A stretch of 64,000 nucleotides of DNA, from NCBI RefSeq assembly GCF_900476395.1, contig NZ_UIHB01000002.1, positions 899,126-963,125 of the forward strand, written 5' to 3'. Both the position numbers and the translations under genes were made by a program. Under the pieces are notes generated by a model that saw only the letters and a list, made by a program, of their open reading frames with translations, searched no databases and was not told the origin of the DNA. Below, in pieces: positions 4,646 to 63,997 of this stretch. Position 1 is the stretch's first letter; every line of letters begins with the position of its first letter. This DNA comes from Xanthomonas euroxanthea (GTDB lineage Bacteria > Pseudomonadota > Gammaproteobacteria > Xanthomonadales > Xanthomonadaceae).

Positions 4646-5525
4646 TCAATTCATCTTCGCTGCGCGAATATCGCTTGCTGCATCGACAAGCGCTGCATAT
4701 AGCTCCCAGCTCGGCGTTTCGACGATGCCCCTGGCGCCACCCTTCTCGATCTTCCTGATTCCGCCGAATCGGCTCAACTTCTACCAAGCCCGTTCGTGTG
4801 TCGGCGCCGTGGTCCAGAGGCGTTGCCTCATGGCTGCCTCTATTTCGCCTAGCTCTAGCTCACCCTGCTGCTTGACCCACTCCATATCCGTGACTAGGCG
4901 CTCCAAGAATTGGGGTTGGGGTCGACATTGTTACTTTCGTGTTCGATCAAGGCACCGTTGAGGCGGCTGAGGATTCGCAGAAGCTGCTCGTTCAAGGTGC
5001 TGTCGAGCAAGATCGCATGGCGGCTGATCTTGTTCAATGCCGAGTGGCACGCTCGATTTGCATGATGCAGCCGCAGCCAGAACGAATGCTGGCGATACTC
5101 CGTGGTCGGACCGGAACTTGTGCGTAGTTCTTCCTGCTTCCATGGCTCCAGCTCACATTTTTCAAGGAATGCCAGCAGCTACTGCTCTTTCATGCGGTTG
5201 AGGTCAGGATAGGTCTGAAACGAGGAAGCCAAGGCAGCGGTCGACCAGAAGGCCTCATGCACCTCGTCCCACACCAGCGGCAGCAGCTCGAATTCGCGTT
5301 GGTGAAGCTTCGTGGCGCGATCAAAGAACGTGGTGAGTTCGCTGCGCAGTCGCTCGATCTCCCTGTTCTGGGTGTGAGCCAGCCCCTGCAGGCGGCTCTT
5401 GAACTTTTCGTTAAGCCAGTTCTCGGCCAGCTTCTTCAGTTCAAAGTCAGTGCAAAGTAAGTGATCGCGCTGAACCCGCCGCCCACCCCGACTACGCCGA
5501 GAATCCATTCGGAAACACTGGCCAC
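4646..5525 (-). pseudogene. Decayed membrane-anchored coiled-coil gene (four lesions)
   Basis: The start is a GTG at 5525 with AAGGAG upstream, 14 bases after the stop of the 240-residue gene before it. The product begins with a membrane helix (EWILGVVGVGGGFSAITYFA). It then frameshifts near 5445 into a helical region (WLNEKFKSRLQGLAHTQNRE, then FFDRATKLHQREFELLPLVW). Translation meets an in-frame TAG at 5179, continues (LLAFLEKCELEPW), frameshifts again near 4910 into FLERLVTDMEWVKQQGELEL, and meets another TAG at 4781. It then runs in the same frame (KLSRFGGIRKIEKGGARGI) to TGA at 4646. The intact gene would encode roughly 290 residues. The last segment might instead belong to a separate small gene. 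The function of the family is unknown to me. Confidence 0.6.
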
Positions 5526-5539
5526 CCTCTGCTCCTTGT

Positions 5540-6262
5540 CTAGTAAGAACGCATCGGCTGCGGACCGCCCGCCGCAGGTGCGTCGGGAGCTTGCCTCTTC
5601 GTGTTTTGCTTAGAAAAGTAGCTGACGCTGCGGTCGTAGACAGGGCGCACCGCTTTGTCCAGCGCGTCGGGATCCAGCGGGGAGAGGAGCATGGCAACGC
5701 TCAGTGCGAGTTGGACGAACACGGATATGTTGTCGATGTTGTGGGCCAGCTCGTCCCAGTTGATGGTCAGGTCGCCCCATTCGAGGTGTTGCGTATAGAT
5801 GCCCAGCACCTCGACACCACCATGTACCAAGCCAGACAGGCTCTTCTGGTGCGTGTTGACGACCTTCAACAGCGTGGCACTGTCCCAGCCCAGGTGCTCA
5901 CCAGCCTCCCGGGCAACTTCGGCGATATGGATAACCCGCTTCCCCCGCTTGGGCATTTTGCCCGTGCGCCGGAAGCGCATCAGTTCCTCGTGTCCTGCGG
6001 CTTTGGCGTAGAAGGCTGCCCGCAACACATACTCCATCTGAGTCCGCTGCAGGGTTAGCGCCGCCACCCAGAACTGGGTGAGATCTTGCTCCAACAAGAC
6101 GAAAATGGCGTCTGCGGTATCCAGTGCGGCCAGTGCCAGTGGCATGGTCGTCGCGCTCCTCTCATCGACCCGGACGCCGAGCTCGGCGAATACGGGGCGG
6201 GTGAGCTGCACTAGGTCCCGGGCGGCGCGGATGCGAAGCTGCAGTTGATCGGCCGAGGCCAT
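5540..6262 (-). CDS. Helical hypothetical protein
   Basis: A 240-residue product starting at MASADQLQ (ATG at 6262, preceded by AGGA); the open frame extends further upstream, but that part is Pro/Arg-rich shadow of the next gene. It is almost entirely helical, with a central segment LLKVVNTHQKSLSGLVHGG that recalls DUF5677/DUF6988-type or HEPN-like helical families, and a tail rich in Pro, Ala and Gly. I could not identify a catalytic motif. It lies 37 bases after the kfrA-like gene on the same strand and is followed immediately by the pseudogene at 4646-5525, so the three may be one transcript. Function unknown. Confidence 0.7.
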   Translation of the reverse strand: MASADQLQLRIRAARDLVQLTRPVFAELGVRVDERSATTMPLALAALDTADAIFVLLEQDLTQFWVAALTLQRTQMEYVLRAAFYAKAAGHEELMRFRRTGKMPKRGKRVIHIAEVAREAGEHLGWDSATLLKVVNTHQKSLSGLVHGGVEVLGIYTQHLEWGDLTINWDELAHNIDNISVFVQLALSVAMLLSPLDPDALDKAVRPVYDRSVSYFSKQNTKRQAPDAPAAGGPQPMRSY

Positions 6263-7379: not shown

Positions 7380-8459
7380 ATGAAAAAAATCACGTCTGCC
7401 ATCGTTGATCGGCTGCCGCGCCTACCCGATCCCACCCGGCTGTCGGCCGAAGCGGCGGCCGCCGCCGACCAGATCGCCGCCGCGGCGGCCAGCGCCAACA
7501 CCGCGCGCAGCTACCGCGCGGCACTGCGCTACTGGGCCGGCTGGCACCAGGGCCGCTTTGGCCAGCCGCTGCGCCTGCCGCTGCCGGCTACCGCAGTGGT
7601 GCAGTTCATCGTGGACCATCTGGAGCGCGACACCAGCGAGGGCATGCGCTGGGAGCTGCCGGCCGCACTGGACCAGGCGCTGGTGGCCGCCAAGCTCAAG
7701 ACCCGTCCTGGCCCATGGCGGCTGTCCACCCTGACCCACCGCGTCTCGGTGCTGAGCAAGGTCCACCAGCACCAGCGCCTGCCCAACCCCATCGACAGCA
7801 GCGACGTGCGCCAACTGCTGGCCCACGCCCGCCGCGCCGCGCACAAGCGGGGCGAGCGCCCGTGCAAGAAGTCGGCGATCACCCGGCTCGAGCTGCAGGC
7901 GCTGATGGCCACCTGCGGCCCGGACCTGGTTGGGCTGCGCGATCGCGCCCTGCTCTGCTTCGGCTTTGCCAGCGGCGGTCGCCGGCGCAGCGAGGTCGCG
8001 GCGGCGACGCTGGCCAACCTGCGCGCCCTGCCCGAGGGCGGTTATGTCTATTACCTGGACCAGGGCAAGACCCTGCAGGACGGCCCGAGGGTTGGGGCTA
8101 GTCCGGACAAGCCCTTGCTGGGTGCGGCGGCGATTGCCCTGCAGGCATGGTTGGACGCGGCCGGGATCACCGAGGGGCCGCTGTTTCGGCGGATCTGGGG
8201 CAGCAGGATCGGCCCGGCGTTAAGTGACCGCGCCATCGCCATGGTCATCCAGCGCCGCGCCACGCTGGCCGGGCTGGAGGGGGACTTCGGCGGTCACAGC
8301 CTGCGCGCGGGCTTCATCACCGAAGGCGCGCGCCAAGGCGTGGCCCTGCCCGCGCTGATGGCGATGACCGACCATCGCTCTGTCACGAGCGTGACCGGCT
8401 ACTACCAATCGGGTGGAGCGCAACGCAATCCTGCGGCACGTCTGCTGGAGGACGTCTAA
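7380..8459 (+). CDS. Tyrosine recombinase / integrase (copy 1)
   Basis: A 359-residue phage-integrase-family protein. Residues about 25-120 form the helical core-binding domain (ANTARSYRAALRYWAGWHQG). The catalytic domain has the first Arg in FASGGRRRSE, a Lys in LDQGKTLQD, HSLR, the second His in DHRS, and the nucleophile Tyr nine residues later in VTGYY. All active-site residues are therefore present and the enzyme should be competent. It is divergent from the kfrA-like gene, and the same pair recurs at 56452-58587 with high similarity. There is no neighbouring tRNA, and the attachment sites are not evident. It is followed by a 992-residue gene and the CBASS locus. Confidence 0.92.
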   Translation: MKKITSAIVDRLPRLPDPTRLSAEAAAAADQIAAAAASANTARSYRAALRYWAGWHQGRFGQPLRLPLPATAVVQFIVDHLERDTSEGMRWELPAALDQALVAAKLKTRPGPWRLSTLTHRVSVLSKVHQHQRLPNPIDSSDVRQLLAHARRAAHKRGERPCKKSAITRLELQALMATCGPDLVGLRDRALLCFGFASGGRRRSEVAAATLANLRALPEGGYVYYLDQGKTLQDGPRVGASPDKPLLGAAAIALQAWLDAAGITEGPLFRRIWGSRIGPALSDRAIAMVIQRRATLAGLEGDFGGHSLRAGFITEGARQGVALPALMAMTDHRSVTSVTGYYQSGGAQRNPAARLLEDV

Positions 8460-50986: not shown

Positions 50987-51706
50987 ATGACTGTTGGAGC
51001 AGCAGCCAGTGCCATAGGCACGACCTTGACACACCATGTCGATCCTTCACTGAACTACACCCCACGGCAGCTGACGCGAGGACAACGCAGCAGGCAAGAG
51101 GTGTTCGTGTATCAATCTCCGCGCAACCGGCGGGTCGTCACCGTGGCGGATCCCGCCCACTTTGCATTGGGTCTGATTCTAGAGTTCGACTCTGCAGTTC
51201 GAGCATATGTGGAACGGCCCCGTCAGCTCCAGCTGTCGCTCAAGACATCCGTTGATCTATCTTTCTGGTCGCATATGGCCAACGGAAGTCAGCAGTTCCA
51301 TCTCCTCATCCCGACTGCACGCACCGCCCGTAGTAGCAGCGGCGTCGTCATGCTTCCCGCAAGAGAAGAACTTATCGAAATCGGCGTCCGGAACGGCGTG
51401 CTACTCACCTGCATGACTGAGTTGGAGCTGACCTCCTCACTGGCACGGGTGGCCGTGTGCTACGAGCTCCTGCCATTGGTCTGGGATAGCGAACGGATCA
51501 TTGCTCGCGCCGCCATCGCAGAGCAGGTCAAAGAACTTCTAGGACGTGCGCCGCGCCTGAACTTGGCCAGCTTGATCTCTGCCCTCTCCTACACCGCGCA
51601 CCAAACTCGGGCCACGGTTGCCTGGATGATCCATCAAGGCATCCTCGCGCTTGTAGACCACTCCCCGGGTTCAAGTGATGCGGTGCTGGAGCTCGCTCAT
51701 GGCTAA
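50987..51706 (+). CDS. tnsA-like: TnsA-like protein of a Tn7-like transposon
   Basis: 239 residues from the ATG at 50987 (GGAG upstream). The N-terminal part has the TnsA pattern (YTPRQLTRGQRSRQ; ALGLILEFDSAVRAYVERPR; VDLSFW). Where TnsA nucleases have the E-x-K that completes the active site, this protein reads QQFHLLIPTA. The catalytic Lys therefore seems lost and strand cleavage may not occur, which would leave cointegrates. The C-terminal half resembles the winged-helix part that binds TnsC. The next gene starts before its stop. Assignment leans on the tnsB-tnsC-tniQ neighbours. Confidence 0.78.
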   Translation: MTVGAAASAIGTTLTHHVDPSLNYTPRQLTRGQRSRQEVFVYQSPRNRRVVTVADPAHFALGLILEFDSAVRAYVERPRQLQLSLKTSVDLSFWSHMANGSQQFHLLIPTARTARSSSGVVMLPAREELIEIGVRNGVLLTCMTELELTSSLARVAVCYELLPLVWDSERIIARAAIAEQVKELLGRAPRLNLASLISALSYTAHQTRATVAWMIHQGILALVDHSPGSSDAVLELAHG

Positions 51707-53552
51707 CCCGCGCAGACTCTACGATACCGAGGAGCTGGCCAAGTGGTACTGCCCTAGCGAGGTGGAGCTTAAGGAGGCGGATCGATCCAACTATCGCCGC
51801 GCCAGGGCCGCATTGACTGCCGCACTGACCGGTGAACTCTCCTTCTCCCGCGCTGCTGCTGCTCATCAATTGTGCCGCAAACGGCTTGCACGTATGGCTG
51901 AAGCAGCGCCACGCAGGCACGCGGACGGAATGCCCAATGGCTTTCGCGTCTGCGTCCCCTGGGGAACTTATAGTCATGGCACTGCTGGTGACGTCGGCGG
52001 CCGTGTACCTAGTGCCGCCGGCCCAGGGGCGATGCGCCAATTGCTGCAGGCGTTACCGCTAATCCGCACGTGGGTGGAGGGCTACCAGCAGCCTCTTCCC
52101 CCCGGTCGCGCTCCCAGGGGGTTTGATCGTCTGCACGAGCGCATCTGCGCGGAATTGGGGCGCCAGGACTTGGCCGACCACTATCCGTTGAACACACCAG
52201 ATCGAGGCAGACGCGCACTTCTGGACTACCTTCGCCGTTCTCGGATCATGGCGGTAGTACCTGGCACTCTAGAAGTGGAGCAAGTGCCTGTGCGCAAGCT
52301 GGAAGATGCGTTCAGAGGGCGAATATTTGATCGCACCGAATTTGATGCACATCGCATTGATGTGGAGGGCACGTTGAGTGTGGACGTGCCGCTTGGTGGC
52401 ACCGTCGAGAAATCGGTCACCACAATTTGGTTGCTCATTGAAGTTGAAACACGCTCCCGAGCTATTGTGTCTTGGTCACTTCGAGTTGGTCGTGGCTATA
52501 GCAATCTCGATGTGGCCACCTGCTTAGCGGTGGGACTGAGGCCGTGGGTTCCACGTGAACTGACAATCCCGAATCTGTCATATGCGCCGGGAGCGGGCAT
52601 GCCGACGGGGTTGGAACCGGCGCTAGCCGCGAGGCGGTCCAGATCCATTGCGCTGGATAACGCCCTTGCTCACTCAGCATGCGACTTGGAAGCGTCCTTC
52701 TGCCATTCCCGAGGCGGCGTACTGATCTTCGGGCGCGCCCAACAACCGCGCTCTCGGCCAATTGTTGAGCAGTTGTTCTCCCGTTTGGAGCGAGGTGCAC
52801 TTCGCCGTATCCCAGGTGGCTTCGAGCCGGCCAAACGTTTAGGCGATTCGAAGATTCGGATCAGCAAGGTTCACGGTGATGACCACGCTTTTCAGCTGGG
52901 TGCGTTCGAGGAGTTGATCGATGTAATAGTCGCAAACTACAACGCCACCGTACACCCTGCCTTGGGCAGCCTGTCGCCTCTGCAATTCCTACAATCGCAG
53001 GCCAGTTCTGCATTCGACTTCAGCCCCGACACCGGCGCGCAAGATGCAGATGAATTGTGTACGGTCATGGCTCCCCTAGTCGTTCATGGGAACAAGTCTC
53101 AGGGTGTTGTGCCGCACGTTAACTACAAATACGTAAAGTACCGCAGTGCGGGTCTCGAGGGGCGCTGGGAACTAGTTGGCAAGACAGTGATGGCTCGAAT
53201 CAACCGAAACGATCTGCGCAGCCTGATGCTGATGCGCAGTGCAACTGCCCCACTTTGTGCAGCACGAGCCGCCTCACCATGGGACAGAACACCACACGAC
53301 GAAACCACCCGCAAGTTGATCATGCAATGGGTCAAAAATCGCTCGGGCTTCAGCATTGCCGGTGCCGACTGCGCTGTGGCTGCTTATATCGCCTTCTTGC
53401 GCAATAAAGCACAGACCTCACAACTAGCTGTAGACCAGCTCGCTCGCATGGATACCGCTTTTACGCAGGAATCGCGCCCTACAAGTGGGCCCGACTACTA
53501 CAGCGCAGAACTTCGAATTGCTTCCGATGGATGGGTGAGCCTGGATGAGTAA
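51699..53552 (+). CDS. tnsB-like: TnsB-like DDE transposase
   Basis: 617 residues from the ATG at 51699, overlapping tnsA by 8 bases. An N-terminal helix-turn-helix region binds the ends in this family. The retroviral-integrase core shows Asp221 (HRIDVEGTLSV), Asp320 (IALDNALAH) and Glu357 (IVEQLFSRLE), a D-x36-E spacing. A beta-barrel and basic tail follow. It is the catalytic subunit joining transposon ends to target DNA, and its binding sites are probably the repeats at 56109-56216. Confidence 0.9.
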   Translation: MANPRRLYDTEELAKWYCPSEVELKEADRSNYRRARAALTAALTGELSFSRAAAAHQLCRKRLARMAEAAPRRHADGMPNGFRVCVPWGTYSHGTAGDVGGRVPSAAGPGAMRQLLQALPLIRTWVEGYQQPLPPGRAPRGFDRLHERICAELGRQDLADHYPLNTPDRGRRALLDYLRRSRIMAVVPGTLEVEQVPVRKLEDAFRGRIFDRTEFDAHRIDVEGTLSVDVPLGGTVEKSVTTIWLLIEVETRSRAIVSWSLRVGRGYSNLDVATCLAVGLRPWVPRELTIPNLSYAPGAGMPTGLEPALAARRSRSIALDNALAHSACDLEASFCHSRGGVLIFGRAQQPRSRPIVEQLFSRLERGALRRIPGGFEPAKRLGDSKIRISKVHGDDHAFQLGAFEELIDVIVANYNATVHPALGSLSPLQFLQSQASSAFDFSPDTGAQDADELCTVMAPLVVHGNKSQGVVPHVNYKYVKYRSAGLEGRWELVGKTVMARINRNDLRSLMLMRSATAPLCAARAASPWDRTPHDETTRKLIMQWVKNRSGFSIAGADCAVAAYIAFLRNKAQTSQLAVDQLARMDTAFTQESRPTSGPDYYSAELRIASDGWVSLDE

Positions 53553-53611
53553 CCAGGTTTTAATCGCCGCTCGCCCAAGACCATCTGCATTCTTCTGCCA
53601 GAGTCGAGTAT

Positions 53612-54616
53612 ATGAATAGTCCTCATGTCAACTCTATCACCAATAAGGTCCATCCACTTCTGATTCCCGACGGCTATCAAATCAATACAAAGCCGACAGA
53701 ACGACTCGCTAATTTTATTAGAACGAACATCTTTGAGGGACACCATGGATGCTCTGCATATGGTGGCGGAGGCATCGGAAAAACTACGGCAATTACCTAT
53801 CTGACAGATAACGCGTCTCGATGGTTGATCAACACTGATAAGCAGCCCATGGCAGTCGCGATGCGAATGGTCATGGCCAGCGGGATCCGCCGCACTGACA
53901 GAGCGTTCTGGTCCACCATGAATGAGCGGATAGGAATTGGCACCTCCAGCGGCACCACATCTGCAGTTGGCATGGCCAAAATCCGCCACCTCATTGGAAG
54001 TCGATGTGGACAAGCCGGCGTAAGCAGGATGGTGCTGTTCATCGACAATGCTCAGAGGATCACCGAAGCGGAGTACGAGTACATGGAGGATCTGGACAGC
54101 ATGATCCTTCAGGATCGCCTGAATCTATTCCTTGTCCTGATTCGCCAGAGTGATGCCGAAGGCGTGGAGGTAGGAGACGATTGGCGCGATCGTGGTACGC
54201 ACAGTATCCGGCGCTGGTTCATGGCTACTACACCTTTCGGGCCACTGGTGGGGCTGGAAGAGGTCAAGCACGCGCTCAACGGCTACGACAGTAGTTGGTG
54301 GCCCAATCCGGAAATGCCCTACAGCCGCTACTTCGCTAAGCGGGCTTTCGACAATGGATGGCGACTGAGCAGCCAGGCCTCATTGATCTGGGAAGTGGTG
54401 GGCGAGATGAGGAAGAAGGGCAAGCTTCCCGAAAGTAAAGCGTGGCCAATGGCCACCTTCACGTTGATGGTTCGGCAACTGCTTTGCGAAATTGCTTTCC
54501 GTCAGGAGAACTTCAATGGCTTCACAGCAGACCAAATAGCGATGGCCCTGCAGAACTGCGGCTACCTGCGTCTTGAGTACGTACGGGCTCGTATGCGCAT
54601 GCCTCCGGGCGGTTAA
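53612..54616 (+). CDS. tnsC-like: TnsC-like AAA+ ATPase
   Basis: 334 residues. Walker A is GGGGIGKT at 51-58 (SAYGGGGIGKTTAITYL), and Walker B is MVLFIDNAQRI near 140-150. TnsC links the target selector to TnsA/TnsB and enforces target immunity. It begins 59 bp after tnsB and ends 16 bp before tniQ, all one operon. Confidence 0.9.
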   Translation: MNSPHVNSITNKVHPLLIPDGYQINTKPTERLANFIRTNIFEGHHGCSAYGGGGIGKTTAITYLTDNASRWLINTDKQPMAVAMRMVMASGIRRTDRAFWSTMNERIGIGTSSGTTSAVGMAKIRHLIGSRCGQAGVSRMVLFIDNAQRITEAEYEYMEDLDSMILQDRLNLFLVLIRQSDAEGVEVGDDWRDRGTHSIRRWFMATTPFGPLVGLEEVKHALNGYDSSWWPNPEMPYSRYFAKRAFDNGWRLSSQASLIWEVVGEMRKKGKLPESKAWPMATFTLMVRQLLCEIAFRQENFNGFTADQIAMALQNCGYLRLEYVRARMRMPPGG

Positions 54617-54632
54617 TCGAAGGCCACAAACT

Positions 54633-56090
54633 ATGAGTTGGTTGCACGAAATTGAAGGTCAGCCAATTGTGCCACGTGTTATAGGGGCTGATCTCAGCCC
54701 CTATCCCTACATCTCCGGGTATGGGCTGGTACAACGAATCGCCAGATTCGCCCTGCCAACCGGCGGAGAGCTAGCCGCTTTGGGTTTAAAAAACAGAAAG
54801 GGGCTAGACGTATTGTTAGCCACTCAGAGGGCCGGCAAGACCCGATCCACCCTTCTAGGGGCGTTGGGCCTGGATGCCACGAGCGTTAGCAACTATTGGA
54901 CACCAGATACCTGGTCACCAATGGATTGTCCAGAACTTTTCAATCGTCACTCTCGTCCTCTGCGTCAGTGCTGGGAGTGTGCTTGCCACGGCTATCATTG
55001 CGCATTATTTCAGCTTCCATCCGTGCGTCGTTGTCCTTGGCACGGCTCTCCACTGACCTGCACATGCCCCAGCTGCGGGGCTACTCAGTTCGCAAGGTTC
55101 AACGAGAAGGATCAGCTTGGTATCTGCCGCTGCGGATACACGGCCGCAGATGCACGCATTGCCTTGGCGGAAATGCGCACATTCCCGGCGGTCCAGTGCG
55201 CCGCTTGGACAGAAGATTATCTCGCTTGGGCAACGCGGGAACGGCGTCACCGGGTAATCTCTGTTCCGGAATCGAACCAGCGCTGGGACGAGGCGTTCGC
55301 CACATTAGCTGCGCTGCCCACAATGCTTCAATCGACGGAGTCCGCTCCCACGACAGCACAGCTGATGTGCTTTGAAGGGGCTGGGCCCGATCCTGCACCG
55401 GATGCTCTATGGGGATGGTCACTTCTGGGTGGCTCTCAGACGTTTCGCTCCGCACCCTTACCTCGCTTTGCTTTCCAAGCCCTCGCCAAGGTAACGCAGA
55501 GCGTACTAAAAAATTGCGGCTGCAACGACGACGTCGTGGCCTTTGATGGCAGCTTGAATCGTGACCCGGCCTATGAGACAGACGCTACGCCCAAATCAGG
55601 ATATATATTAATCGCGCCCTATGGACTCTCCGAGAACGGGCATGCTTGGTTGAATTTGAACGTGATCGATAAAGAAGTGACCACTGCCTGCGGTATGGCT
55701 CTGTCATTGACAGCGTGTCGTCTGATTGGACCGCCTGACACGCACATGTCTCCTCAGGCAAGCATCGGCAGGTCGCTTGGCCAAGTGGTGGGGCGGCGGC
55801 ACATAGTGGATGCGATGATGGCAAGCCTGTGCCGGGGCTACGCTCAAGGACTGACCTTGGTGCTGCAGCCCTCATGGTCAGGTGAACAGCTAAAGCCGCT
55901 GCGCCTTGAAGTACCCCTGATCGAATTAACAATCTGCTCTGGTGGGCTTGATCGGGTACGAATAGCGTGGGCACCCTCCTCAGCGATCCAAAGAAGCTCT
56001 ACTCCTCAAGAGCATGCGGCCCCCATGCCGACGAAGAAGTCCAAATCCATAAAGCGGAAGAGCCGCGCTCGGCGCGTCATTCCGAGGTGA
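54633..56090 (+). CDS. tniQ-like: TniQ/TnsD-family target-selection protein
   Basis: 485 residues from the ATG at 54633. A Cys/His zinc cluster typical of TniQ lies at about residues 110-175 (CWECACHGYHC; RRCPWHGSPLTCTCPSCG; GICRCGY). The C-terminal part is long enough for a TnsD-type DNA-binding domain and ends in a basic tail (KKSKSIKRKSRARR). TniQ proteins recruit TnsC to the chosen target. There is only one here and no tnsE. With no Cas genes or CRISPR in the window, RNA guidance is unlikely. The target cannot be inferred. Confidence 0.85.
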   Translation: MSWLHEIEGQPIVPRVIGADLSPYPYISGYGLVQRIARFALPTGGELAALGLKNRKGLDVLLATQRAGKTRSTLLGALGLDATSVSNYWTPDTWSPMDCPELFNRHSRPLRQCWECACHGYHCALFQLPSVRRCPWHGSPLTCTCPSCGATQFARFNEKDQLGICRCGYTAADARIALAEMRTFPAVQCAAWTEDYLAWATRERRHRVISVPESNQRWDEAFATLAALPTMLQSTESAPTTAQLMCFEGAGPDPAPDALWGWSLLGGSQTFRSAPLPRFAFQALAKVTQSVLKNCGCNDDVVAFDGSLNRDPAYETDATPKSGYILIAPYGLSENGHAWLNLNVIDKEVTTACGMALSLTACRLIGPPDTHMSPQASIGRSLGQVVGRRHIVDAMMASLCRGYAQGLTLVLQPSWSGEQLKPLRLEVPLIELTICSGGLDRVRIAWAPSSAIQRSSTPQEHAAPMPTKKSKSIKRKSRARRVIPR

Positions 56091-56108
56091 ATCTAGAGAT
56101 TAATAAAT

Positions 56109-56216
56109 TAAGGGCATCTTCTCGGTCGTTTCGCCAATTTTGAGGTAGCTTTTCCGTTGCTCAGCAAATCTGGGGCAACATTTCCGCAGCTCGTGAAGCA
56201 TGAGGCAGCTTGTCTG
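56109..56216. repeat. Tandem TnsB-binding-site-like repeats (transposon end)
   Basis: Three 16-bp imperfect repeats start exactly 30 bp apart: TGAGGTAGCTTTTCCG (56141), TGGGGCAACATTTCCG (56171) and TGAGGCAGCTTGTCTG (56201). A weaker fourth (TAAGGGCATCTTCTCGG) starts at 56109. They lie immediately after tniQ. Just outside is GAGACA (56219-56224), which read inward on the other strand gives TGTCTCTGCAGACA and would suit a Tn7-type TGT terminus. The opposite end was not found. Confidence 0.6.
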
Positions 56217-56451
56217 CAGAGACATGTACCGATACCCACCCCCGCCTCGATGTCCGTGCCATGCGAATCAATGACTTACGGGTGGGGCGACTCTTCCCCG
56301 TCAATCATCAGTTTTCTAAATTCGTGTCCTTTTTGCTCGGATCGTGCCCCTCATTGATTTGTAAGGACTTTTTCTCTCCCGCGGGACACGATCCTAAGTA
56401 AGGCCTGGGTGCTCTCCGCGCAGTCAGCACGACACCATGGCTTGCTTGGCA

Positions 56452-57393
56452 TCAGGGCGCCGCTTTGCCGCGACTTCGCTTAGACCGCACAGGTTCTGGA
56501 TGCTTGGGCTGACTCCGTCCAACATGTTGCTGCCAGGCTGCTTCGAGTGCTGCCGGCAGATCGTTCAATTTGGCCAGTTGTGCCTCAAGTGCATCGGCGC
56601 GTGCCTGCTGGATCGTCAGGTCTTGGCGGAGCTCGGAAACATTGCCTTGTGCGCGATCTAGCGCTTCGTCAAGTTGGCGCTCAGTCAGCGCTGCTTCTCG
56701 CCGGCTCGTAGCTAGCTGCTGCTTGGCCTGCTTGGACTCCTGACGCGCACGGTCGATTTCAGCATGTGCCCGGTCTTCAGTGGTGCGTATGTGTTGGCTC
56801 AAAGTGTCGCGCTCGGCACGCGCCGCATCCTGCAATTCCTGGAGCTGGATTCGCAGCATTTCACTGGCGCCTTCTGCACCGGTGGCACGCAAAGCTAAGG
56901 CGTCGCGCTGCTGGCCAAGTTCGGCCAGCTGACGCTGAAGCTGCTCGACAAGACGCTCCAGCTCCGAGGACCTTGCGGCAGCGAGCTGTTCCGCTTGCTG
57001 AGCCTCGTGGGTCGAGCTTTTCAGCCGGGCAAGTTCGGCCTGCATGGTGTGCCGATCTCGCTCTAAGGTTTCTCGGGCGTCTAGGAGGTATGCACGATCA
57101 GCAGCCAATGCCTCATCAGCGTGCACTCGGGCGTGGTCCAGCGCCAACGTCCACCACTGCCCTGCCAAGGACGCGACTGCTTCAGGCACGTTGGCCGTTG
57201 TGATCCGGATCTGACGGTCTGTTGCCAAGCGAGGACCCAAACCCTGCCACCAAGTCTCCAGCCAGCGCACAACAGTGTTCGGTGACCCTGTACCCAGGTG
57301 GGCGCGGATGCGCTCGACCGTTGGTCGTTCGCCATCTGCAACAAGTGCATCGGCAGCTTCGTGCACGTCGGATTCGGTGACGCCTCTGGCCAT
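56452..57393 (-). CDS. KfrA-like DNA-binding coiled-coil protein (copy 2)
   Basis: 313 residues from the ATG at 57393 (GGGAG upstream; an upstream Met at 57417 is less likely). The N-terminal HTH is nearly identical to copy 1 (GERPTVERIRAHLGTGSPNT), while the coiled coil (about residues 90-285) has diverged. The tail is basic (PVRSKRSRGKAAP). It is divergent from the second tyrosine recombinase with the same operator core in the gap. It begins the segment just outside the Tn7-like end repeats. A stem of GGATCGTG and CACGATCC (56339-56394) lies just beyond its 3' end. Confidence 0.88.
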   Translation of the reverse strand: MARGVTESDVHEAADALVADGERPTVERIRAHLGTGSPNTVVRWLETWWQGLGPRLATDRQIRITTANVPEAVASLAGQWWTLALDHARVHADEALAADRAYLLDARETLERDRHTMQAELARLKSSTHEAQQAEQLAAARSSELERLVEQLQRQLAELGQQRDALALRATGAEGASEMLRIQLQELQDAARAERDTLSQHIRTTEDRAHAEIDRARQESKQAKQQLATSRREAALTERQLDEALDRAQGNVSELRQDLTIQQARADALEAQLAKLNDLPAALEAAWQQHVGRSQPKHPEPVRSKRSRGKAAP

Positions 57394-57431
57394 CAAAAAT
57401 GTCTCCCGTATTGGCACCCTGCCCCACAGTT

Positions 57432-57450
57432 GACGTACTCGCGATAAGTG
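57432..57450. promoter_or_regulatory. Operator-like palindrome between kfrA and recombinase (copy 2)
   Basis: CGATAA-GTGATGA-TTATCG has the same half-sites and the same 7-base spacer length as copy 1 (7319-7337), although the spacers differ. Conservation of only the half-sites argues for protein binding. Confidence 0.6.
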
Positions 57451-57498
57451 ATGATTATCGTGGCTACGTCTGCTAATTCGTAGCGTACATTACATACT

Positions 57499-58587
57499 AT
57501 GAATGCTAATTCCACTAGTGCCGCCCTCGTCCAGACCGTCCGCCAGCTGGTATTGCCCGAACAGCTGGCGCAACAGGCGGCGGACGCGGTGCGCGAGCTG
57601 CTGGCCGAAGCAGCGGCCGAGAACACCACCCGCAGCTACACCAGTGCCCTGCGCTACTGGGCCGGCTGGCATGCGGCGCGCTACGGCATCGAGCTCGCAT
57701 TGCCGGTGCCCGAAGCTACCGTGCTGCAGTTTGTGGTCGACCACGTGCAGCGCCGCTCGACTGACGGTGAGCTGGCGTGGGAGCTGCCGCCGATCGTTGA
57801 CCAGGCCTTGGTGGCGGCCGGCCTGAAGGCCAAGCTTGGGCCCTGGACCTTGGCCACCGTGCGGCATCGGGTCGCCGTGCTGTCCACTGCGCACAGGCTC
57901 AAACAGGTGACCAATCCCTGCGAACAGCCAGCGATCCGCACCGTGCTCAGCCGCGCCGCCCGAGCCGCAGTCAAACGCGGCGAGCGGCCGCGCAAGAAGA
58001 CCGCGATCACCCTGCCCGAGCTGGAAGCCCTGTTGGCCACCTGCGACGACAGCCTAGAAGGAACACGGGATCGCGCCCTACTCTGCTTCGGGTTTGCCAG
58101 CGGTGGGCGCCGGCGCAGTGAGATCGCCGCCGCCGACCTGCGTGACCTGCGCCGGATCGGCGAAGCGGGCTACATCTACCGCCTGGAGCACAGCAAAACC
58201 CAGCAGGCCGGTGTCACCGCGAACTCGACCCCGGACAAGCCGGTGCTCGATCGGGCCGCCCTCGCGCTGCAGGACTGGCTGGACGCAGCCGGGATCACCG
58301 AGGGGGCGATCTTCCGACGGCTGTGGAAGCAGCGCGTCGGCCCTGCCCTGTCTCCGGCTGCCGTCGGGGAAATCGTGCAGCGGCGGGCGCGCCTAGCTAG
58401 GCTGGAGGGGGATTTTGGCGGGCACAGCTTGCGCTCGGGGTTCGTGACCGAGGCCAGCCGTCAGGGCGTTGCGCTGCCGGCGATCATGCAACCGACCGAG
58501 CACCGGTCGGTGTCCAGTGTGGTTGGATACTTCCAGACCGGCGGTGCATCCGCGAATCCTGCCGCTCGCCTACTGGAAGATGGCTAA
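57499..58587 (+). CDS. Tyrosine recombinase / integrase (copy 2)
   Basis: 362 residues. The catalytic set is complete: Arg in FASGGRRRSE, Lys in LEHSKTQQ, HSLR, His in EHRS and Tyr nine residues later in VVGYF. It is a close paralogue of the enzyme at 7380-8459 over its whole length, including the C terminus (ASANPAARLLEDG). It is divergent from KfrA copy 2. The sequences after the two recombinase stops share a short motif (AGC(C/T)GCATA), which could be part of an attachment site. Confidence 0.92.
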   Translation: MNANSTSAALVQTVRQLVLPEQLAQQAADAVRELLAEAAAENTTRSYTSALRYWAGWHAARYGIELALPVPEATVLQFVVDHVQRRSTDGELAWELPPIVDQALVAAGLKAKLGPWTLATVRHRVAVLSTAHRLKQVTNPCEQPAIRTVLSRAARAAVKRGERPRKKTAITLPELEALLATCDDSLEGTRDRALLCFGFASGGRRRSEIAAADLRDLRRIGEAGYIYRLEHSKTQQAGVTANSTPDKPVLDRAALALQDWLDAAGITEGAIFRRLWKQRVGPALSPAAVGEIVQRRARLARLEGDFGGHSLRSGFVTEASRQGVALPAIMQPTEHRSVSSVVGYFQTGGASANPAARLLEDG

Positions 58588-59819: not shown

Positions 59820-60184
59820 GAGGTCAGCGATCGACGTCTTCGTCCTGTGGAGGCGCTGGATTGTGTCTCTGCGGTGATCCCAGGTGCAGCGATAACGTAC
59901 AAAAGCCGGACCCTACCGGTCCTTGCAGTTCCTACGAGGGCAGACGTCTGTCCAAGCCTGTCGATTGGGGGGCTTGAAATGCGCGCATCCGTCACAAATC
60001 ATAAACGTGAACGGTCATCTGGGCGTCTCGGGGGCAACCCGCACGTAAAACGCCGGTCGCGTGTCTTGCGACGGACATGGAACACCGTTGCCAACAACCT
60101 GAGCCAAGGAAATCCACCCATGTGTAGGCACGTCGGTCCGGAATCACTGCAACCCCACCATTTGGCCACGTCGGAGGTGCGGGC
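59820..60184. other. Promoter region of the cyclase operon
   Basis: About 365 bases with no convincing gene. An inverted GCCGGACC...CCGGTCC lies near 59910. GGAGG at about 60172 serves the cyclase start. Confidence 0.4.
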
Positions 60185-61744
60185 ATGAGTACCCGAACGT
60201 GGAACAAGGATCGCGCCGCCAAGCGCATTCAACAGAAGATCGACGAAGTCGCGTTGAAGGACTTCCAGATCAAGACCTATGTGCGCGACACCGACTTACA
60301 CAGCCTGTCCAAGAATGTGGCCTACCGGGTCGACGGCGTACACCTGTATGCGGACATCCTCAATTTGAAGGACATGCTGCACGTCACGCAGGTGGAAGGC
60401 GAAACCTGCCATCGCCGCGTCCTGCGCTTTTTGAATCTCCACTATCGTGCGGTCGAGCGCATCCTCAACAACGAGGAGGCTCTGCTGATCGACTTCCACA
60501 ACCAGCGCCTGCACTCAGTCGTGACGAAGCCCTACGACGACGAGGCCAAACGCATCCATCGTGCCATCGCCATCGGCCAGTTGACGATCGACGTGCTCGC
60601 CAAGACCGGCGAGGATGCCGACCATCCTGCGGCAGCGGTACGCGTCGGTATCGACACGGGCCAGGCGCTTGCCGTCAACAACGGGCGCCGTGGCCACTGT
60701 GAACCCTTGTTCCTGGGTGAGCCCGCCAATCACGCGGCAAAGCGTTCTGGTGGTGGGTCGGCCACCGGCATCTATTTGACCAACAAGGCGCGCAAAGCCA
60801 TCGGCTTGGCGGCCGCCGCCAACGAGGACGCAACGGCCCTCACGGCTGAGGAGATCGCCAACAGCCAAGCGATCGCCAAGCTCTCAAGCACCGTCGACGG
60901 TGTGGTCAAGGACTGGAAGGCCGACCTCGATGCCAATCCGATTGGCAAGTTCGAGTTCAGTGGGCACACCCCGCCGTTTGCCGATCTTGACCTGGAAACG
61001 CTCTCGGTCAAGAACTCCCGCCGACAGGACGCCGCCACCGTCTATGGCGACATCGATGGATTCACCAAGTACGTAGGTGCCAACATCGCCGATGACGAGA
61101 AGGCCAAGCACGTCGTCCGTGCGCTGCGCGTTCTCCGTAGTGAGTTGGATGCCGTGCTGCACGAGGACTTCAAGGGTCGCAAAGTCCGCTTCATTGGCGA
61201 CTGCATTCACGGTCTCTTTGTCGAAGGCACGGCACAGACAACCGACGTCGAGAGCACGATCAGCACGATGGTCCTGTGCGCCGGCGGCATGCGCAGCAGC
61301 TTCGACTTGGCGCTGGCCAAGTTGAAGGAAGCGGGCACGGACGCCTCAAGCCTCGGCCTGCAGGTGGGCTTCGAGTATGGCCCGATGACCGCAACCCGTC
61401 TGGGCATGAAGGGGGATCTCATTCGCTGCTCGGTCAGCCGCGGCACGCTGGTCGCCGAAGCGGAGCAAGGCCGCTGCAGCGGCGCTGAGACCGCGATTGG
61501 CCAGGTCGCCCACGACAAGGGCTCGAAAGCGGTGCAGGCGATCTTCGGATCGACGCGCAAACGCAAAGGCCTTGACTACGCGACGGCGGTCGATGAACTG
61601 GCCGCGAAGGATGACAAGACCGCACGTGTGGCCAAGGCAGCCGCGGCTGCCGGCGCTCTGCTGCAGCCGGCGACGTCTGCAGCAGATCCCTATGCCTTCC
61701 GGAATTCACCGAGCGGGCCGGCCAAACCCAATGGCTTCGCTTAG
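60185..61744 (+). CDS. Tandem-domain class III nucleotide cyclase (Pycsar-like)
   Basis: 519 residues with two cyclase homology domains. Domain 1 (about 48-205) has Asp57 (LYADILNL), Asp103 (LLIDFHNQ), VRVGIDTGQALAV and the Asn-Arg helix LGEPANHAAKR (Asn182, Lys186-Arg187). Domain 2 (about 284-430) has Asp289 (VYGDIDGFTKY) and Asp339 (VRFIGDCIHGLF) but lacks the Asn/Arg pair. Only one composite site (metals from domain 2, Asn/Arg from domain 1) would be complete. The last 40 residues are disordered and end PAKPNGFA. Pycsar cyclases make cCMP or cUMP upon infection; which base is used here is unknown. The next gene overlaps by 14 bases and encodes ubiquitin-like conjugation enzymes. Confidence 0.85.
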   Translation: MSTRTWNKDRAAKRIQQKIDEVALKDFQIKTYVRDTDLHSLSKNVAYRVDGVHLYADILNLKDMLHVTQVEGETCHRRVLRFLNLHYRAVERILNNEEALLIDFHNQRLHSVVTKPYDDEAKRIHRAIAIGQLTIDVLAKTGEDADHPAAAVRVGIDTGQALAVNNGRRGHCEPLFLGEPANHAAKRSGGGSATGIYLTNKARKAIGLAAAANEDATALTAEEIANSQAIAKLSSTVDGVVKDWKADLDANPIGKFEFSGHTPPFADLDLETLSVKNSRRQDAATVYGDIDGFTKYVGANIADDEKAKHVVRALRVLRSELDAVLHEDFKGRKVRFIGDCIHGLFVEGTAQTTDVESTISTMVLCAGGMRSSFDLALAKLKEAGTDASSLGLQVGFEYGPMTATRLGMKGDLIRCSVSRGTLVAEAEQGRCSGAETAIGQVAHDKGSKAVQAIFGSTRKRKGLDYATAVDELAAKDDKTARVAKAAAAAGALLQPATSAADPYAFRNSPSGPAKPNGFA

Positions 61745-63440
61745 TCTCTGGTTTCTGGCTGATCAGGCGCGCTTCCGTCGTGAGCGTGAAGCGCTGGTCG
61801 AATTGGCCAACCGGACCGATTGGCTGAACTTGGGTCCCTGTCGATTTGATGCGGGATGCATGGTGGTGGACTGCGACATCGACATTGGACACCAGGTCTA
61901 TCAGGCCGTTCTTCGGTTTCCGGAGACCTTCCCCCACTCCCCGCCCTCGATACGACCGCGTGACGGCCAAGGGCGGTGGTCGATCCATCAATTCGGGGAT
62001 GGCGGCGATCTATGCCTGGAGTATCGCCCCGACAACTGGTCGCCGGAACTTATGGCGTGGCAGATGGTGGAGAGCGCCTATCGCCTGCTGCAGGGCGAGA
62101 ACCCCGCTCCGAACGAGCATGCACGCGTAGCGTCAGCACATCGGACCACGGAAGGTCAGCGCCTTCGTGCGGCGTTCAGTCGCCTTCCGCTTACGCGTGC
62201 CCTTGAGGAACGCCTGAGCCAGTTGCTTCCTGGCGTGGGTGTCCGAGGCTCGTCAGTCCTCTATCTGACTGAGGACAACGTCGTTCGCTTCATTACCGGA
62301 CTCGATTTTCCTGACGAAGACCCCTGGGTGGATCCCGATGTGCCGTCGATGCTGAGATCTGAAACATGGAAAGCGCGTGTTTATGTGAGGCGTCTGGTGG
62401 CTCATGAATCCCTGCCATCCACAGCCTGCTACGCCGAGTTTTCTGCGGGTTCCGAGCCCCTGGGATGGCAGGCGACCGACCAGCTTCTGGTTGTCATGAA
62501 GGACGATGCCATTCATGCGTATCAGACGTTTGACGACTATGTCGCCCCGGTCTCCGTCATACGCGCGGCGCCCGTTGCGTCGCGCCTTAGCGACGAGCAT
62601 CGCCTTCTGGCGGACAAGCACGTCGCCGTTCTTGGATGCGGCTCGATGGGCAGCAAGATCGCGACCATGCTTGCTCGCGCCGGCGTCAAGAAGTTCGATC
62701 TCGTGGATGACGACATCCTTGGCGCAGATAACCTGGTGCGCCACGATCTGGACTGGCGTGAGGTCGGCCAACACAAAGTGATGGCTCTCGCCAATCGCAT
62801 TCGCCGCGTACGGCCCGGCGCCGACGTGCGTGTGCGCACCCAACAGTTGGCGGGCCAGGAGTCCAGCCGTTCCTCCGAGACCATTCTGTCGCGACTGGCA
62901 GAGTGCGATCTCATCATCGACGCGACAGCGAATCCAGCTGCGGGCAACATCCTTTCAGGGTTCGCTCAGACCACCCATATTCCGTTACTGTGGGCAGAGG
63001 TTTTTGGAGGTGGCGTGGGTGGCCTAATCGCACGGCATCGCCCGGGCATTGAGCCTCCGGTACCCCTGATGCGTCGTGCGATTGAGAATTGGTTTGCGGA
63101 CAGGGGCATCGCCCCGGAACTTCAGGTCGAGACCTATGAACGAACGGGCGATGAAGCGCCCATGGTGGCGGACGACGCCGACGTGACGACGATTGCAGCC
63201 AATACGACGCGCATGGCCATCGATGCGCTTCTGGGGAGAGATCCGTCCTATTTCCCGTGGTCGGTCTACGTCATGGGCCTATCGCCCTGCGACCTGTTCG
63301 CCCAGCCCTTTGAGACCCATCCCATCGCCTTGCCGGAGCCACCGCCAGCCGTCGCTGAGACTGTGCTGACCGAGGAGGAAGTTGGCGAGGAGATTTCCTT
63401 CTTGCAGCGGGTCCTGGCTGGGCCCACCGAGCTCACATGA
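61731..63440 (+). CDS. cap2-like: E2-E1 fusion (Cap2-like ubiquitin-like conjugating enzyme)
   Basis: 569 residues from the ATG at 61731 inside the cyclase gene; the open frame further upstream is not protein-like. Residues about 1-150 are an E2-like domain with the catalytic Cys95 in GGDLCLEYRPDNWSPELM. Residues about 160-285 are a linker domain. From about 290 lies a ThiF/MoeB-type E1 domain: nucleotide loop VLGCGSMGSK (302-307), LVDDDILGADNLVRHDL and LIIDATANPAAGN. In type II CBASS, Cap2 joins the C terminus of the CD-NTase to a target and primes it. Here the neighbour is a class III cyclase instead. I could not place the E1 catalytic Cys with confidence. Confidence 0.85.
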   Translation: MASLSLWFLADQARFRREREALVELANRTDWLNLGPCRFDAGCMVVDCDIDIGHQVYQAVLRFPETFPHSPPSIRPRDGQGRWSIHQFGDGGDLCLEYRPDNWSPELMAWQMVESAYRLLQGENPAPNEHARVASAHRTTEGQRLRAAFSRLPLTRALEERLSQLLPGVGVRGSSVLYLTEDNVVRFITGLDFPDEDPWVDPDVPSMLRSETWKARVYVRRLVAHESLPSTACYAEFSAGSEPLGWQATDQLLVVMKDDAIHAYQTFDDYVAPVSVIRAAPVASRLSDEHRLLADKHVAVLGCGSMGSKIATMLARAGVKKFDLVDDDILGADNLVRHDLDWREVGQHKVMALANRIRRVRPGADVRVRTQQLAGQESSRSSETILSRLAECDLIIDATANPAAGNILSGFAQTTHIPLLWAEVFGGGVGGLIARHRPGIEPPVPLMRRAIENWFADRGIAPELQVETYERTGDEAPMVADDADVTTIAANTTRMAIDALLGRDPSYFPWSVYVMGLSPCDLFAQPFETHPIALPEPPPAVAETVLTEEEVGEEISFLQRVLAGPTELT

Positions 63441-63997
63441 GGATCCGTGTTCCTGCTTTTGTCATAGAGAAGCTAGGGCGGGAGCTGAAGGCGGCCTGTG
63501 GACGCGAAATTGGCGGTGTGCTTGTTGCAGAACGCTTGGGTGGAGACGAATTTCTGATTGCTGACCTTTCTGTGCAGCGCAGCGGTGGCTCCAGTTTCTT
63601 TTTCGAACGTGACCCGGCGGAGCATCAAGCCTTTCTGGCGGACTTCTTCTACCGAACGGACCATGACTACGCGCGATTCAACTATCTTGGTGAATGGCAC
63701 TCACACCCAAACGTCGACGCAGTACCTAGCGTAAAGGACGTACTGTCTATGCAGGAGATCGTCATGGACCCAGCGGTTAACACGCCGTTCGCGGTACTCC
63801 TGATCGCGCGTAGGCGGCTCTTTCGTGGCCTCGACTTGTCGGCGACAGAATTTCGGCCAGATAAGCTTCCTTCCCCAGCTGCCTTGCTCGCGCGTGATGG
63901 AAGTGCCAATGACAAGGACTTTAATGAAGTACGGCCACGCGCCCGTCGCCGACTGCCATGGTCCTCGCCCGCCTCAACCCTCAGAGTAGATCCATAA
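63437..63997 (+). CDS. cap3-like: JAB/JAMM isopeptidase (Cap3-like)
   Basis: 186 residues, overlapping the E2-E1 gene by 4 bases (ATGA). The JAMM metal site is complete: Glu24 (GREIGGVLV) and His88-x-His90-x7-Ser98-x2-Asp101 (GEWHSHPNVDAVPSVKD). Cap3 removes the Cap2-made conjugates in type II CBASS, so the same antagonism is expected here. The C-terminal 50 residues are basic and variable. The stop lies 3 bases before the window ends; any effector gene downstream is out of sight. Confidence 0.88.
   Translation: MRIRVPAFVIEKLGRELKAACGREIGGVLVAERLGGDEFLIADLSVQRSGGSSFFFERDPAEHQAFLADFFYRTDHDYARFNYLGEWHSHPNVDAVPSVKDVLSMQEIVMDPAVNTPFAVLLIARRRLFRGLDLSATEFRPDKLPSPAALLARDGSANDKDFNEVRPRARRRLPWSSPASTLRVDP

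Follow-up and report, generated by a model that had tools for sequence, protein, structure and literature searches.

A Pycsar operon of Xanthomonas euroxanthea with Cap2- and Cap3-like genes and a cyclase tail of CD-NTase type

We analysed a 64,000-nucleotide stretch of Xanthomonas euroxanthea DNA (contig NZ_UIHB01000002.1, positions 899,126 to 963,125; hereafter the window), at the end of which three overlapping plus-strand genes combine a cyclase of the Pycsar type (pyrimidine cyclase system for antiphage resistance) with enzymes of the type II CBASS kind (cyclic-oligonucleotide-based antiphage signalling system). The first, at 60185..61744, encodes PycC, a tandem-domain class III nucleotide cyclase of 519 residues and of clade A type, with cyclic UMP (cUMP) as its predicted product. 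The second (61731..63440) encodes a Cap2-like E2–E1 fusion of 569 residues, and the third (63437..63997) a Cap3-like JAMM isopeptidase of 186 residues. The last 32 residues of PycC and its stop codon (61646..61744, plus strand) form a C-terminal tail that ends in KPNGFA, with Ala519 as the terminal residue, and that we propose to be a tag for conjugation by Cap2. A first-pass annotation, made from the letters alone, had given the three gene positions and the overlaps of 14 and 4 bases between them, all of which were borne out. It had also seen no effector; this holds for the window, which ends 3 bases past the JAMM gene, but not for the genome, where a gene with cyclic-nucleotide-binding (CNB) and Toll/interleukin-1 receptor (TIR) domains follows 19 bases past the JAMM gene. 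In L002, an 18 kb genomic stretch of which 12.9 kb lies downstream (window coordinate = L002 coordinate + 58874; L numbers denote collected loci throughout), this gene occupies 5143-6069, just past the window, and encodes a PycTIR effector of 308 residues (104.5 and 46.1 bits with Pfam, 392.6 with PADLOC and 174.7 against PDB 8JSJ). As annotated, the operon is PycC-Cap2-Cap3-PycTIR.

The assignment of PycC is supported along nearly its full length, with 698.9 bits to the PADLOC profile PDLC00762 over residues 4-500 and 561 bits to PDB 6YII over residues 3-492. The single-domain PycC profiles of PADLOC match both halves of the protein, and Pfam Guanylate_cyc scores 36.7 bits, over its cut-off. 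According to PMC11224242, 6YII is PaPycC of Pseudomonas aeruginosa and belongs to clade A, which is characterised by two consecutive cyclase domains, and clades A-D make cUMP. The window PycC has the two consecutive domains, and its residues Y287, D289 and D339 are the same in all of 50 aligned sequences, D289 and D339 being the catalytic aspartates looked for in a PycC-family class III cyclase. Synthesis of cCMP or cUMP and protection against phage are predicted because the protein is 54% identical to the P. aeruginosa clade A protein, and by this analogy the product is probably cUMP. A GTG-started open reading frame (ORF) of 113 codons (59847-60188) lies directly upstream, its end overlapping the PycC start by 4 bases.

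Cap2 scores 601.8 bits with the PADLOC E1-E2 profile PDLC00855, so high that close relatives of it are probably among the sequences from which the profile was built. With Pfam, ThiF reaches 89.9 bits, over the cut-off, while UQ_con, with 23 bits, stays below its threshold of 27. The ORF list holds a longer, TTG-started frame for this gene; the start at MASL used here is common to the relatives in L016, L017 and L019. Cys95, which the first-pass annotation had named as the E2 cysteine, is invariant in all 48 aligned Cap2s. For the E1 cysteine, Cys392 fits better than position 420, which was considered first: it is present in 38 of the 48 (27/37 PycC-linked and 11/11 CBASS) and lies 297 residues after Cys95, compared with 312 in Bacillus cereus Cap2 and 304 and 316 in two CBASS Cap2s, so that by spacing only it may be the counterpart of the E1 cysteine named for the B. 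cereus enzyme. Position 420 was rejected as the conserved E1 catalytic cysteine, with cysteine in 4/37 PycC-linked and 4/11 CBASS sequences. The JAMM protein matches Pfam Prok-JAB (49.6 bits, over the cut-off) and the PADLOC JAB profile PDLC00906 (186 bits), and its predicted motif residues E24, H88, S89, H90, S98 and D101 all fall in columns conserved in at least 95% of 46 Cap3s. Both conjugation enzymes of type II CBASS are therefore present with their catalytic residues.

The gene set recurs, contrary to the first of the objections that the first-pass annotation had foreseen. A PycC alignment was scanned against contigs of 84,980 species, and the best 80 of 103 relatives were kept; with six further genome loci (some of which repeat scan genomes), three plasmid genes and the window this gave 90 PycC genes. 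One of them (L032) is truncated by the end of its contig and was set aside, leaving 89 complete genes that encode 79 distinct proteins; the PycC of a Sphingobium baderi plasmid spans the record start and stands outside the 90, although its Cap2 is within the Cap2 counts. As relatives were ranked in the scan by their similarity to the window, the set gives no estimate of frequency. Cap2 follows PycC directly in 36 of the 89 complete genes, and Cap3 is also present in 34 of these, so that chance neighbourhood of PycC and the Cap2/Cap3 pair is rejected by recurrence. Alpha-, beta- and gammaproteobacteria, together with one acidobacterial metagenome-assembled genome, are the sources of the linked PycCs, which range down to 53% identity with the window PycC. 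The 14-base PycC/Cap2 overlap is found in the window, L016, L017 and L019; the remaining 32 linked loci have a shorter one, of 4 bases or 1 between the PycC stop and the earliest usable start of Cap2. Among the 53 Cap2-less loci, 12 have less than 4 kb of sequence after PycC and one less than 1 kb (L068, 343 bases); a missed Cap2 is most conceivable in loci with such short downstream sequence.

The triplet also recurs beside effectors, as the first-pass annotation had proposed to check: PycTIR was identified in 29 of the 36 linked loci and PycTM in two (L046 and L072). PycTIR lies downstream on the same strand in 18 loci, including the window, is convergent in nine and upstream in two. In L059, and perhaps L029, the TIR gene adjoins a small PycC and may belong to it. 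As for the remainder, a CNB-cyclase fusion lies near the triplet in L018 and L026, the contigs of L022 and L023 end, and in L035 we looked for an effector and identified none. By their sequence family, the effectors identified in linked loci are Pycsar effectors. Small PycC genes are present in 10 of 35 Cap2-linked loci.

The PycC tail separates linked from unlinked cyclases. All 36 complete Cap2-linked PycCs end in GF[AS], compared with 0/53 Cap2-less ones; counted as distinct sequences, the figures are 35/35 and 0/44. Every one of the 35 distinct linked tails has the G and the F; 30 then close with A and 5 with S. Two genomes provide internal controls. In L026, a second tandem PycC without its own Cap2 is also without the tail, and in genome G274 a type II CBASS Cap2 and a PycC without Cap2 lie on different contigs, this PycC having the ending HVAAT. 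The Cap2-less proteins have an ending of their own: the pattern [RKTENQ]P[HYFC], picked after viewing the tails, occurs in the last 20 residues of 43/44 distinct Cap2-less clade A PycCs (L038-L094) but in only 3/35 linked ones. Given this shared Cap2-less end, the linked end looks replaced rather than merely extended, and it looks as if the ancestral last ~25-30 residues of PycC gave way to a tail of the type found in CD-NTases (cGAS/DncV-like nucleotidyltransferases), the cyclases of CBASS.

The resemblance to CD-NTases was found in several ways. In tblastn against single loci, PycC residues 454-519 matched a protein encoded directly before a Cap2 gene (36% identity, E 2.5e-6), whereas the cyclase domains gave no match. 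The matched protein is a DncV-like CD-NTase that ends in NKSSGFA, from a patatin-CD-NTase-Cap2-Cap3 operon in another genome of the same family. Of 11 CD-NTase tails, 9 are recognised by a profile built from the 36 PycC tails, with E values no higher than 0.0025 and 3.5e-9 at best (for a nominal 1000 sequences), while 220 tail-shuffled CD-NTases reached 0.52 at best. The best of the 53 Cap2-less PycCs gave 0.019, over model positions 2-28 with the end motif unmatched. Against 12,500 stop-to-stop ORFs of the collected loci (repeats and overlapping loci counted again), the PycC-tail profile picked out nothing but Cap2-linked PycCs (40 matches) and CD-NTases (11 matches), in every case at the extreme C-terminus. 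The reverse profile, built from CD-NTase tails, found 34 Cap2-linked PycCs (31 C-terminally), 14 CD-NTases and one stray ORF, and no Cap2-less PycC among the 12,500. Two CD-NTases (L103:2619-3836 and L108:1941-3152) extend past the motif, with the endings QGFGGAE and AGFGGK, and may need trimming before conjugation.

These findings can be set beside what is reported for CBASS. Cap2 forms a thioester with the C-terminal glycine of the CD-NTase, which is then joined to lysines (PMC10097602). The 1,583 CD-NTases encoded in operons with Cap2 and Cap3 have a highly conserved terminal Gly or Ala, while the terminal residue is unconserved in other architectures (PMC10097602). In B. cereus, a cyclase with the ending KPGGFA becomes attached to PspA, a linkage that Cap3 undoes (PMC11153139). 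The window PycC shows the corresponding feature as sequence, namely Ala519 at the end of a CD-NTase-type tail. Conjugation of the cyclase, which had been proposed from the gene content, gains further support from this ending, and the likeliest course is that PycC took on a tag of CBASS type and serves as a substrate of Cap2.

Several results weigh against this interpretation. Five of the 35 distinct linked tails end in Ser (L003, L045, L059, L060 and L065), a real tension because a Gly-to-Ser exchange abolished conjugation in one CBASS system (PMC10097602). A terminal Gly or Ala, outside a GF[AS] motif, is also found in seven of 44 distinct Cap2-less PycCs. One CD-NTase tail (L015) matched the PycC-tail profile weakly (E 0.052) and another (L109) gave no match. 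Cap3 was not found in L021 (in L023 the contig ends soon after Cap2). The NCBIfam Cap3 model scores 47.4 bits against a cut-off of 200, and for 6A-MBL_cap2_3, whose cut-off is 320 bits, the scores are 99 and 34.9; as these scores are under the cut-off and Cap2 and Cap3 are separate genes here, a 6A-MBL fused Cap2/3 protein was rejected. The weightiest point is phylogenetic. A tree of the cyclase core, with the tail excluded, groups 35 linked PycCs in a clade with full SH-aLRT support and leaves one long-branched row outside it. A single clade of linked PycCs fits (p-AU 0.81; L099 left out of the test tree) and is 19 log units better when held together, so the tail and Cap2 were probably gained once and kept without exception in the sample. 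The tail-Cap2 link is then about one evolutionary event, and 36 versus 53 are not 89 independent observations; a test on independent pairs was without power. The idea that tail and Cap2 were gained independently more than once is unsupported, since L095 stands apart in a quick tree but one clade fits better. In terms of sequence, the independent support for the link is the match to CD-NTase tails. In the best Cap2 tree the PycC-locus Cap2s fall into two groups, which does not bear out one clade apart from CBASS Cap2, even though one clade is not rejected (p-AU 0.37). By eye, PycC and Cap2 show like groups in both trees.

We also looked at Cap2 outside PycC loci. In a phylum sample of 398 genomes, PycC occurs in 4 (one-sequence query) and Cap2 in 7 (alignment query), and the two are adjacent only in the window's own genome. 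All 7 proteins directly upstream of Cap2 in this sample end in GFA or GFG; they are the window PycC, 2 profile-confirmed CD-NTases and 4 others whose type was not assigned. In a class sample of 369 genomes Cap2 occurs in 3, the window and two type II CBASS operons. On plasmids, PycC occurs in 28 records (4 retrieved) and Cap2 in 339 at E 1e-5, and 9 of the 11 retrieved Cap2s adjoin a gene annotated as nucleotidyltransferase or DncV-like. No PycC match was found in phage records. The first-pass annotation had held that its idea would fail if the conjugation pair recurred mostly with unrelated genes; Cap2 does sit mostly apart from PycC, but its usual partner is the CD-NTase, the known CBASS substrate, rather than an unrelated gene. 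The remaining objection foreseen, a downstream CD-NTase that owns the Cap2/Cap3 pair, also fell away: a search with 11 CD-NTase cores matched both positive controls but gave 0 matches in the window, in L002 and in 35 Cap2-linked loci. No relative of the cyclase that defines type II CBASS was thus found there with these cores.

Judged from sequence comparison, it is very probable that this is a Pycsar anti-phage operon that adopted its reversible conjugation module from type II CBASS; the module would act on PycC through its tail. The sequences themselves show the operon, its effectors, the conserved catalytic residues, and the tail with its tie to Cap2. How the chemistry runs, what the target is and which way regulation goes we infer, and we propose the following course. 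Upon infection, PycC would make a cyclic pyrimidine mononucleotide, probably cUMP, which the neighbouring PycTIR would bind and, judging by family members, respond to by degrading NAD+. Cap2 would adenylate the carboxyl group of Ala519, PycC would be passed to the E2 Cys95 and then joined to lysines of a cellular target, and Cap3 would cut it free again. Conjugation would set how readily PycC fires, and PycC would have become a substrate by acquiring the Gly-Phe-Ala tail of CD-NTase type. The gene for PspA is present in the window's genome, and PspA is no more than a candidate for the PycC target.

Each half of the operon has known counterparts. The clade A PycC and PycTIR pair of P. aeruginosa plasmid p382 (L012) has the same tandem-domain cyclase, 54% identical, and a CNB-TIR effector, but that operon is without Cap2 and Cap3 and its cyclase has another C-terminus. 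Type II CBASS with CapV, SAVED or another effector shares Cap2, Cap3, the order cyclase-Cap2-Cap3 and a cyclase tail in GFA or GFG; here, by contrast, a class III pyrimidine cyclase stands in the place of the CD-NTase, and PycTIR or PycTM serves as effector. The B. cereus type II CBASS (PMC11153139) has a similar tail, KPGGFA compared with KPNGFA here, and an E2 cysteine and a later cysteine that are similarly spaced, yet it differs in having a CD-NTase that makes cA3 (cyclic tri-AMP) and a Cap4 effector (PMC13424991). A PycC-Cap2-Cap3-PycTIR operon is present in Burkholderia cepacia LK29 (L050:8001-12849). About 0.8 kb beyond its TIR match lies a small PycC (L050:13668-14354, minus strand) that corresponds to the BcPycC structure 7R65 (514.9 bits over 2-228); within the excerpts consulted of PMC11224242, only this small clade B cyclase is described for LK29. 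Within the literature library searched, no listing or excerpt consulted describes Pycsar with Cap2 and Cap3, and an earlier tabulation of the gene set is conceivable.

With somewhat less assurance, we think it probable that the CD-NTase-type tail is a portable tag that moved with Cap2-Cap3 onto a cyclase of unrelated fold, giving a 'type II Pycsar' whose pyrimidine cyclase acts as a ubiquitin-like modifier. If this is true, Cap2 would recognise the tail and not the cyclase fold, and conjugation would be open to any protein that bears the tail. In bacterial immunity, ubiquitin-like conjugation would then not be bound to the cGAS fold but would be a movable layer addressed by a short tail. The messenger would differ as well, being cUMP where CBASS uses cyclic oligonucleotides. 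The system lends itself to a clean test of which of the two, tail or fold, is recognised by Cap2, and of the effect of conjugation, and tail profiles may find further Cap2 substrates.

The explanation above fixes no direction for the effect of conjugation, and for this the published CBASS work offers analogies of both arming and restraint (PMC10097602, PMC11153139). One variant of it is that Cap2 and Cap3 are a brake: PycC would be parked at rest on a target such as PspA and freed by Cap3 on infection, as proposed for B. cereus CBASS (PMC11153139). The presence of a PspA gene in the genome and the resemblance of KPNGFA to KPGGFA speak for it. In E. coli CBASS, however, conjugation raised the output of cyclic GMP-AMP (cGAMP) (PMC10097602), and nothing in the sequence fixes the direction; we regard the brake as a reasonable but tentative option, a little short of an even chance.

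It is improbable that the GFA tail is kept on other grounds, for example a pairing with PycTIR or the constraint set by the overlapping start codon of Cap2. The codons of the tail end do overlap the Cap2 start in the four loci with the 14-base overlap, but GF[AS] is equally kept in the 32 where the overlap is 4 bases or 1, the classic PycTIR-PycC pair of L012 lacks the tail, and the tail is common to CD-NTases with different effectors. Still less credit is due to the idea that a type II CBASS operon lost its CD-NTase and a Pycsar landed upstream, leaving Cap2 and Cap3 to modify something else. Cap2 has another partner in 6 of the 7 Cap2-bearing genomes of the phylum sample and 2 of the 3 of the class sample, as this idea would have it; against it stand the 36 recurring loci with the Cap2 start within the PycC end, the like groups in the two trees, the CD-NTase-type tail on PycC itself and the lack of any relative of the 11 CD-NTases in linked loci. 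Equally far-fetched is a PycC that accepts conjugation from another donor protein: E2, E1 and JAB enzymes elsewhere, in Bil systems, work with a small ubiquitin-like protein, and the 113-codon ORF directly upstream might be a candidate, but no gene fits within the 19 bases between triplet and effector, and what is conserved is a free C-terminus, which a donor would be expected to have.

The reading of PycC as the conjugated protein concerns the operon itself; further genes lie on both sides of it. Behind the operon, a second PycTIR occupies L002:6106-7101 (116.5 and 44.9 bits, searched from 6199) and is followed by a small single-domain PycC in two ORFs, L002:7107-7469 and 7466-7801, which match PDLC00766 as separate pieces with 140.6 and 134 bits. 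Its halves lie in different frames, through mutation or assembly error, and the whole (L002:6106-7801) is a second, perhaps damaged, Pycsar pair. On the other side, at 51675-58587 of the window, the surroundings are those of a mobile element, with genes for a 625-residue protein, an AAA-ATPase and a 505-residue protein, a KfrA-like gene and a phage-type integrase. Of the first three, only the ATPase has a Pfam match; we take their order to be that of a Tn7/Tn5053-type set.

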